Assembly (NCBI GenBank): GCA_017439405.1
Contig: JAFSJF010000094.1
Coordinates: 1-61,164 of the forward strand
Reading direction: 5' to 3'
DNA: 61,164 bases
Source: Bacteroidales bacterium
GTDB lineage: Bacteria; Bacteroidota; Bacteroidia; Bacteroidales; F082
Shown here: piece after piece, positions 43,835 through 54,328 of the stretch
How the letters are laid out: each line of letters begins with the position of its first letter
How positions within the stretch are numbered: the stretch's first letter is position 1
Translations under genes and position numbers: made by a program
Notes under the pieces: model-generated
What the model was told of the DNA's origin: nothing
Database searches by the model: none
Seen by the model: only the letters and a program-made list of their open reading frames with translations

Positions 43835-45253
43835 TTATTGAAACAAGTCGTCCATGGTCACTTCGGCGGTGATATAGTCGGAGTACATGTTCCGCTTCAT
43901 GCCGAATGTGGTAATCAAAACAGGGTGTATGGCCGCCCGTGTTTTGGTCTCTTCCTTGAAGCTCCCACAACGGTTGCGCAAGCGCAGGTCTTCGTCCTTG
44001 TCGATGGCGTATTCTCTTTGCGAATACTTCACCTCGCACACGTTGACGACTTGGTCGGCTCGCTCGATAATGAGGTCGATTTGCACGGCGGGAGTGCTTT
44101 GTTTGCTTCGCCACGAGTAAAAACTTGTCTGAATGCTGTCTATGTGTAAAGCGTTCTTTATTTGCGGGATGTGTGCCATGCATAGCCGCTCGTAGGCAAG
44201 CCCGAACCAATTGTTTTGGACAGGCTTGTCGATGGTCGAAGACCAAAAATTGGGGTTGGTGGACGGCGCAAGGCAGAAAGTCAGATAGAAGAACGTGAAG
44301 AAGTCGGTCATTTGGTAGATGGCCGAGGTGGATTTCACCTTTTTGTCCTTCACATAGTAGCGCCTGATGAAGTCGCAATAGATGAGGTTGTCGAGCTTGT
44401 CGCTCAAGCCGCCGCCTGATGTAAGTTTGAGTGCCTTAGCGACTTCGTCCCTGTCCATCCCCGATTTCTTTTTGGCAAGTTGCTCAAGTATAAGTTGATA
44501 CGGCTCCGGATTACGAAACAGCGACTTGAACAGCCGCTTGTATTCTCGGTGCATTTCGGCATCATCGGCGAAAAACAGTCGGTCGATGTTTTGTGGTAGG
44601 CTTTCCGCTGGACGTAGAAGGCTTAAATAGTATGGGATTCCACCCAAAATCATGTAGGTCTGCGCGATTGACAGCCGATTCCAGTTGAATTTGTTGGCGT
44701 TGAGGTAAAGCTCGGTTTCGTGAAGCGTAAACGGGTGTAGATGCATCTCATGCGTAATACGATTGTGCAGTCCGCCGTGGTTGTCAATGATGTTTTTCAC
44801 AATCCACGAGGTGGCTGAGCCGCAAGCGATGAGCATGATGTTCGCCTGATGGGCTGCCCAACCGTTCCAGAAATGGTCCAAGGCCATGACGAATTTGCTG
44901 CCGTGGGTATCGAAGCAGGGCATTTCGTCGATGAATACGATGCAACGTTTCTTGCGTTTTTGTTTTGATAGCAGTTGCTCCAAACAGGCGAATGCCTCGA
45001 ACCAATCGGCGGGCGGTGTGATGATTTTCGCGCCGTATCTCATTAAGGCTTCGGTGAATACCTTCAGTTGGTCGATACCTTCGCCTTCGACGATGCCCGA
45101 CACCTCGAACGTGAACTTGTTGTCAAACAATTCCCTGACGAGAAATGTTTTTCCGACGCGCCTGCGTCCGTAAATGGTGACAAACTCTGCTTTGCCCGAG
45201 TTTTCGTATTCGGTCAGCAGTTTGATTTCGTTTTCCCTCCCGATGATGTCCAT
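43835..45253 (-). CDS. AAA ATPase with C-terminal DUF234-type nuclease-like domain
   Basis: A 472-residue protein of the archaeal-type ATPase/DUF234 group. Walker A is GRRRVGKT (29-36), Walker B CIVFIDEMP, and a sensor-like IACGSATSW follows. The C-terminal VQIDLIIERADQVVNVCEVKYS resembles a PD-(D/E)xK core (D...ExK). Such genes are common solitary cargo in Bacteroidales; their role is unknown, possibly defence or DNA transactions. The ATG at 45253 begins MDIIGRENEIKLL, as is usual. The gene is enclosed by 100-bp direct repeats. Confidence 0.82.
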   Translation of the reverse strand: MDIIGRENEIKLLTEYENSGKAEFVTIYGRRRVGKTFLVRELFDNKFTFEVSGIVEGEGIDQLKVFTEALMRYGAKIITPPADWFEAFACLEQLLSKQKRKKRCIVFIDEMPCFDTHGSKFVMALDHFWNGWAAHQANIMLIACGSATSWIVKNIIDNHGGLHNRITHEMHLHPFTLHETELYLNANKFNWNRLSIAQTYMILGGIPYYLSLLRPAESLPQNIDRLFFADDAEMHREYKRLFKSLFRNPEPYQLILEQLAKKKSGMDRDEVAKALKLTSGGGLSDKLDNLIYCDFIRRYYVKDKKVKSTSAIYQMTDFFTFFYLTFCLAPSTNPNFWSSTIDKPVQNNWFGLAYERLCMAHIPQIKNALHIDSIQTSFYSWRSKQSTPAVQIDLIIERADQVVNVCEVKYSQREYAIDKDEDLRLRNRCGSFKEETKTRAAIHPVLITTFGMKRNMYSDYITAEVTMDDLFQ

Positions 45254-45308
45254 TTTTCTGCTTTTTATCTGCCGCAAAGGTACGATTCTTTCCCGAAACC
45301 GCTGCCGA

Positions 45309-45408
45309 TTTTTCGCCAAATCGATGAAATTTTAATCAAAATGGCGGAATTTGAATCGCTTATTTTCCGCCAAATCGATGAAAAATCGCTCGATTTGGCG
45401 GAAATTAG
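45309..45408. repeat. 100-bp direct repeat flanking the AAA ATPase, copy 2
   Basis: 98 of 100 bases match 43733-43832. On this side it lies upstream of the ATPase start and may contain its promoter or operator. Confidence 0.9.
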
Positions 45409-47718: not shown

Positions 47719-50700
47719 TCATCCCTTCAGCCCAGCCAACTGCTGCTCAATCACAGCGATTTTCGCTTCGGCGTCGGCTTTCTTCTTGCGCTCCTTGTCG
47801 ACGACGGCGGCAGGAGCACCACTCACGAAGCGTTCGTTAGAGAGCTTCGCCTCAACGCTCTTCAGGAAGCCCTGAGCGTATTTCAGTTCTTCTTCCAACT
47901 TCTTGATTTCGGCCTCGACATCGACGCTGCCGGTGAGCGGCACGAAGAACTCGGTGCTGCCCACGATGAAGCCGAAGGCACCAGCGGGAGCCTCTGCAAC
48001 ATAACTGATTTCGCTCACGTTGCAGAGCTTGGCAATCACACAGTCGAAGTCCTTGTTGGCGGTGCCTTTCACCACGAGTTGGATGGCGTCGCGGAAGGCG
48101 ATGTTCTTGTCAGAACGCACCTTGCGGACGTTGTTAATGACCTCTTGGGTGAATTCAAACTGTTTCAAGATGTCGGCAGCCTGGTCGCTGAGCCTGTCGA
48201 AGCGAGGCTGCTGAGCGATGATGATGTCGTCACCTTCTTTGCGCTCGGCGATGGCGTGCCAAATCTCCTCGGTGATGAACGGCATGAAGGGGTGCAACAG
48301 CAGCATCAGGTTTTCGAAGAACTGGATGGTGGCAGCGTAGGTTACAGGGTCGATGCCCTGGCCCTGCGGAGCCTTCACCATCTCGAGGTACCACGAGCAG
48401 AAGTCGTCCCAGGTGAGCTTGTAGATGCCCATCAAGGCGTCGCTCAAGCGGTACTTGTCGATGTTGTCGTTGGTCTCGGCCAGCACTTGGTTGAATCGGG
48501 CTTCGAACCACTTGACGGCCATCTTGGCAGCCTCGGGCTGGGCGGCGCTTTCGTCCACGTTCCAGCCTTTCACGAGGCGCAAGGCGTTCCAAATCTTGTT
48601 GCAGAAGTTGCGGCCTTGCTCGCAAAGGGCTTCGTCGAAGAGGATGTCGTTGCCGGCAGGGGCGCTGAGCATCATGCCCATGCGCACGCCGTCGGCGCCA
48701 AACTTCTCGATGAGCTCAATCGGGTCGGGCGAGTTGCCGAGCGATTTGCTCATCTTGCGGCCTAACTTATCTCTCACGATACCAGTGAAATACACGTTCT
48801 TGAACGGCACTTTGCCTTGGTATTCCTCGCCAGCCATGATCATGCGGGCCACCCAGAAGAAGATGATGTCGGGGGCGGTGATGAGGTCGTTGGTGGGGTA
48901 GTAGTACTTGAACTCGGCATTGTCGGGGTCAAGCACACCGTTGAAGAGCGACAAAGGCCAGAGCCACGAGCTGAACCAAGTGTCCAAAGCGTCGTCGTCC
49001 TGACGCAAGTCTTTCATCGTCAAGTTGTTGTTGCCAGTCTTCTCGATGGCGAGTTTCAAGGCTTCTTCGGGCGTTTCGGCCACCACGAAACCGCCTTCGG
49101 GCAGGTAGTAGGCCGGAATCTGATGGCCCCACCACAGCTGGCGGCTGATGCACCAGTCCTTGATGTTCTCCAACCAGTGGCGGTAGAGGTTAACATATTT
49201 CGCAGGATAGAACTTGATGTCACCGTTCAAAACGGGTTTCAGCGCGATGTCAGCAAGGTGCTCCATCTTGAGGAACCACTGCATCGAAAGTTTCGGCTCA
49301 ATCGGCACATTGGTACGCTCGGAATAGCCCACCTTATTATTATAGTCCTCGATCTTCTCCAGCAGTCCGGCTTCCTTCATGTCGATGATGATCTGCTTGC
49401 GGCAGTCCTCACGGCTCATGCCGATGTACATGCCCGCAGCCTCGCTCAAAGTGGCGTCATCGTTGAAGATGTTGATGCTCTGCAAGTTGTGCTTCTCGCC
49501 TAACATATAGTCGTTCACATCGTGGGCAGGAGTGACCTTCAGACAGCCCGTACCGAACTCGATGTCGACATAGTCGTCCTCGATGACGGGGATGACGCGG
49601 TTGACCAACGGCACCACGACTTTCTTGCCGCGCAGCCATTGGTTCTTCGGGTCGGCGGGGTTGATGCACATGGCCGTGTCGCCCATGATGGTCTCGGGAC
49701 GTGTGGTGGCCACCACCGCGTAGGGTGCCCCACCAACCTCCCCCGAGGGGAGGCTTTTTAGTGTGTAGTTTATGGTGGAAAGCGTCTTTTCGGTCTCAAA
49801 AAGGACTTGTTCGTTTGTAAATCTAAGAATGGTATAACCTTGCAATTCAAGAATTTCAGAGCGAAGTTTGTCGTTTTCGGCCACTTGAGGGTCATTGTGA
49901 TAACCGCCATCCACTTCAATGATGAGGTGTTTTTCCAAGCAAAGGAAATCAACGATGAAATCACCTATAATGTGTTGCCTTCTGAATTTGAATCCGGTTT
50001 TCTTTCCCCTTAGTTGTTCCCAAAGAGTACTTTCTGCTTCTGTGGGTTGGCTCCTCATTCTCTTGGAATGCTCCTTAAGAGTGGAATAGGAATAAGGATT
50101 GGCTGTTCGGTACCTATTGATGAGCTTGGGGAGCTCCCCCTCTGGGGGAGTTGAGGGGGCCAAATAGTATCTCAGGTAGTACAGCTTGCTGTGTTCATCC
50201 TTGAAGATGACTTCCTCGTCGCTCAAGGCGGTCAAGGCTTTCGGGTCCCAGTTGACCATGCGCACGCCGCGATAAATCAGTCCTTTGTTGTAAAGGTCAA
50301 CGAAGGCGTGGATGACGCTCTTCGAGCGGATGTCGTCCATGGTGAACGAGGTGCGTTCCCAGTCGCAGGAGCAGCCGAGGCGGCGCAACTGCTTGAGGAT
50401 GATGCCGCCGTGCTTGTGGGTCCAGTCCCAGGCGTGCTTGAGGAACTCCTCGCGGCTGAGGTCGGTCTTCTTGATGCCCTGTTGCGCCAGCTTGTTCACC
50501 ACCTTGGCTTCGGTGGCGATGGATGCGTGGTCGGTGCCGGGCACCCAGCAGGCGTTCTTGCCCTGCATGCGGGCGCGGCGAATCAGGATGTCCTGAATCG
50601 TGTTGTTCATCATGTGGCCCATGTGAAGCACGCCGGTCACATTGGGTGGCGGGATCACGATGGTGTAGGGTTCGCGTTCGTCGGGCGTGGAGTGGAAGTA

Positions 50701-50772
50701 GTTCTTCTCCATCCAGTGTTCGTACCATTTGCCTTCAACTTCCGAAGGGCTGTATTTGCTGCTGATTTCCAT
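47719..50772 (-). CDS. valS: Valyl-tRNA synthetase with an in-frame DUF559 nuclease insertion
   Basis: A 1017-residue class I synthetase that charges tRNA-Val. HMGH (HIGH) lies at 50-53, [11 protein letters not shown] (KMSKS) farther on, the editing motif [13 protein letters not shown] follows residue 354, and a C-terminal coiled coil is present. Residues about 205-350 are foreign: a DUF559 endonuclease domain between LYYLRYYL and [11 protein letters not shown]. Without it the length is about 871, the norm for Bacteroidales ValRS. The gene is probably essential and the frame is open, so the insertion in this CP1 editing-domain loop must be tolerated. The 3' end appears to have been replaced (see 46779-46844). 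Confidence 0.92.
49723..50162 (-). mobile_element. DUF559 endonuclease element inserted in frame in valS
   Basis: About 440 bp bounded by GC-rich inverted ends. The left end in coding direction is GGCCCCCTCAACTCCCCC plus GAGGGGGAG. The complement of the right end reads GGTGCCCCACCAACCTCCCC plus CGAGGGGAGG. It encodes [56 protein letters not shown] and LRFTNEQV, the conserved order of DUF559/Vsr-like nucleases with D...ExD residues intact. The ends are translated too ([21 protein letters not shown]), so the element is open from end to end. Confidence 0.85.
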
Positions 50773-53006: not shown

Positions 53007-53112
53007 TATTGCTTGATTTATAGATTTAAGATTCAAAATTCAAGATTTAAAATTATTGCGGACAAAAGTACGATTATTTGGTGGAAGTATTGGAGTTGAC
53101 GGTAAATTTTGC

Positions 53113-53120
53113 TAATTTTG
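53113..53120 (+). promoter_or_regulatory. -7 box of DUF1016 at 53144
   Basis: TAATTTTG followed by CAGC, 23 bp before the ATG at 53144. It supports that start over an in-frame one at 53078. Confidence 0.6.
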
Positions 53121-53143
53121 CAGCGGATAAAGATTCAAAACTC

Positions 53144-54328
53144 ATGGACATTATCAAAAGCCGACAAACCGATGAACTTGCCAGTGCGGTACAGATAATC
53201 AAGGAGGCCATACAACAGAGCCAGTTGAGAGCCTTGGGCGCGGTCAATCAAGAGCAATTGGCTTTGTACTATGGCATTGGAAGGTTTATTTCAGCCAACA
53301 CGCGCAATAAGAATTGGGGCAAGGGCTTCATTGAGGCTGTGAGTGAGCAACTGCGGAAGGAATTGCCTGGTTTGCGCGGCTTTTCGGTACGCAATATCAA
53401 GAATATGCGCACTTTTTATGAAGAATGGCAGACGCTTGAAAACCATAATTCGGCAGTTGCAACTGCCGAAAATGAAAGCGGCAAGAGATTGTTCGTTGGA
53501 ACGAACGAAAATGAGAATTTGGCAGTTAAAACTGCCGAATTCAGCACGGACAAAATCTATCAGTTAAAACTGACAAATCTCCCTGATTTTCCCGTTGTGG
53601 CCTTTTTGAGTATTAGTTTTACGCACCACACAGCCATCCTCACCAAGGTTAAATCATACGAAGAACGTATATTCTATATCCAGTTTGCTGCCGATACGAA
53701 AGCCAAAGTTGAGGATTTGGAGCAGTTGATTGATGATGACCTGTTTCATCACCAAGGCCAACTCCCCAACAATTTCAAGAAGAACATTCCAAGCCAATTG
53801 CAAGCCTACCGCGCCATATCGATGTTCAAGGACGAATACCTTCTTGATTATATCAATGTTGAGGAATTGTTTGTGCGCGACAAGGATCGTGATGAGCGAG
53901 TTATCGAACAAGGCATCATCCAGAATGTGAAGAACTTCATTATGACTTTTGGCAAGGACTTCACTTTTGTAGGCAACCAATATCATTTGGAGAAATTTGG
54001 CGTGGAAGAGTTTCCCGACCTGCTTTTCTTCAATAGGGAATTGTCTGCATTGGTCTGTGTGGAATTGAAAAGCGGTCCGTTCAAGACGGCCTATCTTGGG
54101 CAATTGGCAGGTTATTTACGCATTCTCGATGATGAGGTGCGCAAACCCAACGAGAATCCTTCCATTGGTATCCTTTTGTGCAAAAGTGCCAACAAGAAAT
54201 TTGTCGAGTATGTCATCCAGGATTATGACAAACCTATGGGTGTAGCCACATATAAAACTGCTGCTGACATGGACGAGCGACTGAAACGGTTGCTTCCTTC
54301 GGTGGATGAATTGGAGAAATTGCTGTAA
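53144..54328 (+). CDS. DUF1016 (YhcG-type) PDDEXK nuclease with expanded palindromic hinge
   Basis: A 394-residue protein. The N-terminal domain has IIKEAIQQSQLRALGAVNQEQLALYYGIGRFIS and GFSVRNIKNMRTFYEEW. A long hinge (about 95-145: NSAVATAENES, NENLAVKTAEF, YQLKLTNLPD) leads to LSISFTHHTAIL. The nuclease domain has NFIMTFGKDFTFVGNQYHLE and FPDLLFFNRELSALVCVELKSG (PD...ExK). The hinge is encoded by four successive palindromes (53449-53572). Complete and probably active. Confidence 0.85.
   Translation: MDIIKSRQTDELASAVQIIKEAIQQSQLRALGAVNQEQLALYYGIGRFISANTRNKNWGKGFIEAVSEQLRKELPGLRGFSVRNIKNMRTFYEEWQTLENHNSAVATAENESGKRLFVGTNENENLAVKTAEFSTDKIYQLKLTNLPDFPVVAFLSISFTHHTAILTKVKSYEERIFYIQFAADTKAKVEDLEQLIDDDLFHHQGQLPNNFKKNIPSQLQAYRAISMFKDEYLLDYINVEELFVRDKDRDERVIEQGIIQNVKNFIMTFGKDFTFVGNQYHLEKFGVEEFPDLLFFNRELSALVCVELKSGPFKTAYLGQLAGYLRILDDEVRKPNENPSIGILLCKSANKKFVEYVIQDYDKPMGVATYKTAADMDERLKRLLPSVDELEKLL
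53449..53572. repeat. Four tandem palindromes in the DUF1016 hinge (d1-d4)
   Basis: d1 TTCGGCAGTTG plus its complement (53449-53470, perfect). d2 GTTCGTT/AACGAAC (53491-53506). d3 AATTTGGCAGTT/AACTGCCGAATT (53516-53541, one mismatch). d4 CAGTTAAAACTG (53561-53572). d1, d3 and d4 share CAGTT/AACTG. Confidence 0.85.

Follow-up and report, generated by a model that had tools for sequence, protein, structure and literature searches.

A DUF559 nuclease element in frame within valS of a Bacteroidales bacterium, probably one copy of a mobile family of Bacteroidota

For inteins and introns, splicing is regarded as the condition of life in essential genes. Homing endonucleases fall into six families, of which EDxHD is the most recently described, and I-Bth0305I, with its long DNA-binding region, is treated among the group I intron endonucleases (both from extracts of PMC3943268). 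A DUF559 gene of a cyanobacterial genome has been assigned to EDxHD (extract of PMC9403480). In Rickettsia, palindromic DNA is inserted in frame in genes, and RAYTs are tyrosine transposases (extracts of PMC3733652). Here we describe an in-frame element with a DUF559 nuclease inside valS, the valine-tRNA ligase (ValRS) gene, on contig JAFSJF010000094.1 of a Bacteroidales bacterium (assembly GCA_017439405.1). The whole stretch analysed, 61,164 nucleotides (nt), is called the window; G and L numbers denote genomes and loci. The insert is probably one copy of a Bacteroidota-wide mobile family, which would home without splicing, be translated within a loop of its host and make rarer jumps driven by its ends.

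The gene and the parts of the insert are listed below, with amino acid (aa) positions counted along ValRS.

47719..50772, minus strand: valS, valine-tRNA ligase open reading frame (ORF) of 1017 aa, with profile matches
49726..50162, minus strand: whole in-frame element, inverted ends included; 437 nt, occupying the position of a native loop
50128..50162, minus strand: left palindromic end (5' in valS), translated APSTPPEG...
50086..50112, minus strand: N-terminal conserved stretch of the element protein, here YRTANPYSY; consensus YxTAxPxxYxLLKE
49759..50079, minus strand: DUF559 (PF04480) EDxHD/Vsr-type nuclease domain, aa 232-338
49726..49759, minus strand: right palindromic end, translated ...LPSGEVGGA
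49690..49710, minus strand: ATTRPET motif, immediately after the element, aa 355-361

In the scan of the valS ORF, the NCBIfam PRK05729 and valS models match well above their cut-offs, in two stretches split by DUF559. This is the sole ValRS match of its genome at E ≤ 1e-100, and the HIGH-type (aa 41-53), KMSKS (aa 673-677) and ATTRPET (aa 355-361) motifs are all intact. We take ATTRPET to be the editing-domain motif of ValRS and assume the usual roles for all three. The DUF559 match (aa 232-338; E 3e-32; bit score 111, cut-off 20.6) is nested within tRNA-synt_1 and is the only one in the genome at E ≤ 0.001. The domain has the EDxHD catalytic-domain fold of I-Bth0305I, and columns E27, D55, H72 and D81 (not placed residue by residue on 3r3p) are kept in 100-101 of 101 in-gene copies. 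The junctions read YYLAP.. and ..GGAPY, and the reading frame is open throughout the element. A preliminary description of this DNA had placed a complete DUF559/Vsr-like nuclease, with GC-rich translated inverted ends and no stop codon, in frame just before ATTRPET, and all of this holds. The inverted ends (49726-49744 and 50144-50162) are 74% complementary; read more fully, they span 49726-49759 and 50128-50162. The G+C content (GC) is 0.41 in the element core, 0.73 in the ends and 0.57 in the remainder of valS; at third codon positions (GC3) it is 0.44 in the core and 0.80-0.86 in the remainder.

With no stop codon in the host frame, such an element can lodge in one loop of a conserved protein, where it would be translated as an additional domain rather than spliced out. 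Removal of the insert ahead of protein function, whether by splicing of protein or RNA or by ribosome bypassing, is very improbable. Intein junctions start with Cys or Ser and finish with His-Asn; those of the insert do neither, and ValRS has no Hint/intein Pfam match at E ≤ 0.01. Rfam gave no match at all at E ≤ 1 (49500-50400), group I and II introns included. The left and right ends do pair in the predicted RNA fold, as removal would have it, but the structure is unremarkable (z -1.31, with 11 of 100 shuffles equally good) and the frame is kept through the element. Splicing is not supported, homing without splicing is the simplest account, and the earlier likeness to an intein without splicing is apt.

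The site is empty at most of the genus junctions that could be read. ValRS was matched in 55 of 60 genus genomes, and only in G000 and G012 did the match reach into the insert; in at least two of the 55 (G008 and G080) the matches stop short of the site. Of 20 stretches fetched, 14 had a readable junction: one is occupied (G012) and 13 carry a native loop, which is 24 aa long in 11 genomes, shorter in G022 (23 aa) and longer in G081 (56 aa). The element therefore takes the position of a variable loop that lies between YYL and ATTRPET, and its removal would not give the exact length of the relatives, contrary to the claim that excision restores the usual ValRS length. The empty loop of G022 (L082) contains a GTGGAAAGTGGAGAGTG-like simple repeat, so the ValRS loop takes up other sequence too. 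With the insert in 2 of 55 ValRS-matched genomes, it is not an insert that all close relatives share by descent. An assembly chimera is unlikely, since G012 has the same insert and genomes assembled as single contigs (G812, G897, G933, G555 and G579) also contain in-gene copies.

The same element recurs in frame in many other genes, where the preliminary description had proposed to look for like ends with DUF559. DUF559 was matched at E ≤ 1e-15 in 129 of 393 genomes of the order, and 32 of the 150 listed places are inside open frames at least 500 aa long; we read the window copy, the other 31 and three places in shorter frames (L122-L124). A contig scan with a profile from 12 aligned elements found at least 575 relatives. 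Among the best 80 of these and the best viral-contig locus, 70 of 81 are in frame in ORFs of at least 333 aa (10 of the 70 run off the contig end) and 11 are solo. After removal of the duplicates L128 (of L097) and L163 (of L104), the labelled set comprises 114 elements. The hosts of the window copy and of 18 further elements were named by profile scans, the rest by motifs or by eye. Winogradskyella sediminis and Flavobacterium frigidimaris, both in culture, are among the carriers of MetH copies.

Aminoacyl-tRNA synthetases: LeuRS before TTRPDT 18; IleRS 16 and 2 (two sites); ValRS 11; MetRS 2
Other recurrent hosts: RecG 16; MetH 13 and 1; restriction-modification 9; DegT aminotransferases 4; epimerase/cupin-like 2
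Single cases: UvrA, PurL, MazG, CCA transferase, ABC-F, helicase and a second LeuRS site
Solo: 13

Across 296 genomes of the phylum, the 22 top-scoring places lie in ORFs of 425-1402 aa and the lower-scoring ones mostly in short ORFs; since the profile was built from in-gene copies, it favours such copies. The 20 of these 22 that were read lie in RecG (3), MetH (4), LeuRS (7, two sites), methylmalonyl-CoA mutase (2), UvrD-type helicases (2), a GATase_5 protein (1) and an M23 peptidase (1).

Carriage by phages was considered and rejected. Searches with the element by tblastn matched 5 phage records out of 50,697 and 38 plasmid records out of 72,556, and none of the best places reached 60% identity. 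IMG/VR gave 25 matching loci, of which the best, L205 (IMGVR_UViG_2894185313_000007), contains a ValRS with insert and was therefore read as bacterial rather than viral DNA. Flavobacterium-like copies in RecG and MetH were also seen in records titled Limnohabitans (L162) and Candidatus Nitrotoga (L179). This carriage by Pseudomonadota is doubted, and the contigs look misbinned: the RecG of L162 groups with that of G637 (support 100/99), and the L179 element with Flavobacterium copies.

The family has a common anatomy, in which GC-rich inverted ends, mostly palindromic themselves, surround one DUF559 nuclease coding unit. RecG gives the clearest borders: the empty protein reads KLWKKN-IPPH, and the insert begins at about AGCCC..CCTCCC-AAA-GGGAGG and finishes at about CCTCCCCTCTGGGGAGGTTGGTGGGGCT. 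An end consensus was built from the RecG ends alone and scored on the other in-gene sites, with restriction genes and solos kept apart. Both ends of the window copy score 34, against maxima of 18 in 148 control stretches of the tested copies, 20 in RecG controls and 24 in restriction-gene controls. Both ends exceed the control 95th percentile (14) in 64 of 75 copies (left 70, right 68). Taken alone, the window copy has a left-versus-right inverted-repeat score of 20, within the control range (95th percentile 24), so its case depends on the shared consensus; 44 of the 75 copies have such gapped scores above the 95th percentile of their controls. The gapped consensus test with control positions took the place of ungapped hairpin and inverted-repeat scores, which are weak: 44 of 91 in-gene copies have inverted ends that outscore every one of 20 shuffles, and the window copy is not among them. 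The reading phase of the end palindromes is noisy, none being found in 45 of 92 left and 63 of 92 right ends. Restriction-modification relatives have ends that are in part different, of a double-hairpin kind. Extra translated copies of the ends lie in frame beside the element in L103, L135, L091, L112 and L113, sometimes with a YxTAN piece (by eye), and look as if ends can multiply. In the genus of the window, L011, L012, L013 and L014 (G016, G027, G028 and G021) have a GNAT-like ORF (by eye), then a CCCCCTTTAAAGGGGG-type palindrome and a C-terminal DUF559, with an inverted palindrome after the stop; these are a read-through fusion of another lineage.

Lineages of the element keep to their sites. 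On a tree of the 114 elements, which has few columns and many open forks, grouping by site takes 30 label changes, where 20 is the least possible and shuffled labels average 82.8. The RecG copies form one group (support 89), as do the MetH copies (support 83). Dysgonomonas G365 has two copies, each of which is placed with its own site. Site and family are partly confounded, because RecG and MetH copies come mostly from Flavobacteriaceae. But for the 25 Flavobacteriaceae rows taken alone, 2 changes suffice for site (the least possible is also 2, and shuffling gives 9.8), and the LeuRS, IleRS and ValRS copies are each spread over several families. The nearest sequence to the window copy is a ValRS copy, L125 (63%). 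Presence is patchy in RecG as well: among the matches listed, the insert is at that site in 2 of 283 genomes of the class, and empty sites occur in the genus of G688. Occupied and empty rows alternate on a 29-row RecG host tree (7 changes, 6 forced; the occupied rows were chosen for the tree).

Between some species, the element is more alike than its host gene. Divergence was compared in 61 same-site pairs with host identity of at least 0.80, of which 42 are unsaturated (host fourfold difference below 0.62, a threshold of our choosing). The element has the lower fourfold value in 28 of the 42; it is significantly lower in 10 and significantly higher in none. The clearest pairs, element against host, are G688/G983 (1/43 against 72/243) and two Tenacibaculum (8/53 against 94/237). 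In G688/G983, 4 of 437 positions differ in the element and 0 to 9 per 60 bases outside it. The window and G012 differ at 2 of 440 positions in the element, both changing a residue, and at 30 of 643 in the flanks (27/611 upstream, 3/32 downstream; Fisher test against the element 1.4e-5). Differences begin again 33 bases upstream and 5 bases downstream. In the four hosts compared, conservation next to the site does not stand out throughout. For the 30-column right flank it is at the 90th percentile in RecG, 97th in MetH, 89th in IleRS and 53rd in LeuRS; for the left flank, the percentiles are 30th, 78th, 49th and 50th. At 20-50 columns out, 10-column conservation means are 0.85-1.00 in RecG and MetH and mixed in IleRS and LeuRS. 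Conserved stretches near the sites could provide a lasting homing target.

Palindromes like the ends are scattered in some carriers. The window's genome has one exact occurrence of CCTCCCC-N3-GGGGAGG. Palindromes of the form CCTCCC-N2-6-GGGAGG number 37 in G365 (control 2) and 23 in G037 (control 0). In the 20 stretches read from G365, most palindromes lie outside long frames (by eye), and one stretch, L259, contains an inverted pair at close range that resembles a miniature element. At about position 842 of L273 (G365:C6 225200-226900), a palindromic end without DUF559 stands in frame in a 566-aa frame and may be a miniature in-gene copy. Five or more palindromes are commoner in genomes with DUF559 than in those without (8/42 against 3/87, p 0.005), and at least 3 are found in 13/42 and 5/87, respectively.

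A number of results weigh against mobility of the kind we propose. The main ValRS group does not include the window copy, though that placement is not firmly supported, and family labels also cluster (20 changes, least possible 13, shuffled 36.4; 64 rows). One gain is enough for the window and G012, since they are sisters on a 26-row valS tree (support 100/97). Element and host protein identities correlate within sites (r 0.36-0.77), and at the protein level the mean divergence of elements exceeds that of their hosts, so much of the history is one of shared inheritance. In 32 of the 42 pairs the difference is not significant, and in 14 the element value is equal or higher; the p values of pairs are uncorrected, and pairs share sequences. 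The ratio of nonsynonymous to synonymous rates (dN/dS) is mostly higher in the element than in the host. A co-conversion tract is not clear beside the element, the low-divergence stretch stopping sharply in both window/G012 and G688/G983. As regards the ends, carriers G107, G300 and G688 have no CCTCCC-N2-6-GGGAGG palindrome, the excess in genomes with DUF559 does not survive a rank test once two ends per genome are subtracted (p 0.50), and target duplication was not noticed by eye at empty and occupied RecG sites, where no formal test was made.

The correlated identities, the 32 pairs without significant difference and the variable ValRS loop (23, 24 or 56 aa at empty sites) would all suit ancient insertions of a domain into tolerant loops, passed on by vertical descent with frequent losses and mobile no longer. 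We consider this improbable, as the insert is in 2 of 283 listed RecG genomes and 2 of 55 ValRS genomes, empty sites are clean, the element is significantly less diverged than its host in 10 of 42 pairs and significantly more in none, and the catalytic columns are intact.

Transposition driven by the palindromic ends, like that of REPIN/RAYT or of miniature inverted-repeat transposable elements (MITEs), is a serious rival or partner of homing. DUF559 would then be the transposition nuclease, and recurrence at one site would reflect few tolerant sites. The ends are indeed common to different sites, and G107 has two related copies (76% DNA identity over 545 bp, ends included) in unrelated genes, one for HsdR and one for an N6/N4 methylase. 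The palindromes of G365, the inverted pair in L259 and the greater share of DUF559 genomes with at least 5 palindromes point the same way. However, lineages keep to one site, even inside one family, and the three observations on the ends given above count against transposition too. As a full replacement for homing, it is unlikely.

Use of the domain by the host, for example in defence or regulation, is scarcely credible. Purifying selection on the element (dN/dS 0.05-0.24 in 9 computable pairs out of 15) would fit such use, but a selfish nuclease would leave the same signal, the hosts are unrelated and presence is patchy.

Homing without splicing thus remains our preferred reading. The nuclease would cut the empty allele that another cell carries of this gene, and the occupied allele would then serve as the repair template from which the element is copied in. 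Rarer jumps into new genes would use the palindromic ends. The host gene would supply expression and shelter, and the loop would give tolerance; essential hosts may shelter the element because imprecise deletion would be lethal. The preliminary description had suggested a mobile element that survives in an essential gene by being read through and that may home by its nuclease. The first part agrees with the patchy presence, in-frame recurrence, empty sites, grouping by site and element-only similarity; the second is favoured, at the level of sequence, by kinship with I-Bth0305I and by the divergence pattern. More tentatively, the family might represent a fourth habitat of homing endonucleases beside introns, inteins and free-standing genes: fully translated, never spliced, homing across the phylum between the alleles of essential genes and mobilising miniature palindromic relatives. 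Other long ORFs near valS in the window resemble, by eye, a DUF1016-type nuclease and an AAA ATPase (53078-54328 and 43835-45319).

If the proposal is true, a family in ValRS, LeuRS, IleRS, RecG, MetH and further hosts would show that loop tolerance can replace splicing, and the old question of how splicing elements begin would become testable. Odd DUF559 fusions in annotated Bacteroidota proteins would be explained. Protein engineers would also gain naturally occurring sites for domain insertion, and the family would supply many nucleases whose conserved host genes are known. In the literature searched, mostly without subscription journals, no description of nuclease elements translated inside Bacteroidota genes was found.

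Several known systems share part of this arrangement. Compared with I-Bth0305I, the valS element has no intron match and no recognised long DNA-binding region, and its nuclease is translated within the host protein. Vsr endonuclease and NGO0050 (3HRL) are free-standing proteins, whereas the element is bounded and lies inside host ORFs. By description only, it resembles the Rickettsia palindromic elements (RPEs) in being palindromic DNA in frame in genes; RPEs, unlike it, are not known to carry a nuclease gene. Terminal inverted repeats are shared with insertion sequences, and paired inverted palindromes, with gene-free dispersed copies in some genomes, with REP/REPIN. Unlike the REP/REPIN-RAYT system, however, its enzyme is a Vsr-like nuclease: the domain found in the element is DUF559, of Vsr-like fold, and not a tyrosine HUH transposase. 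Like inteins with homing endonucleases, the element places an in-frame nuclease in conserved, often essential proteins at recurrent sites; unlike inteins, it has no Hint splicing domain, occupies variable loops and is bounded by DNA palindromes.
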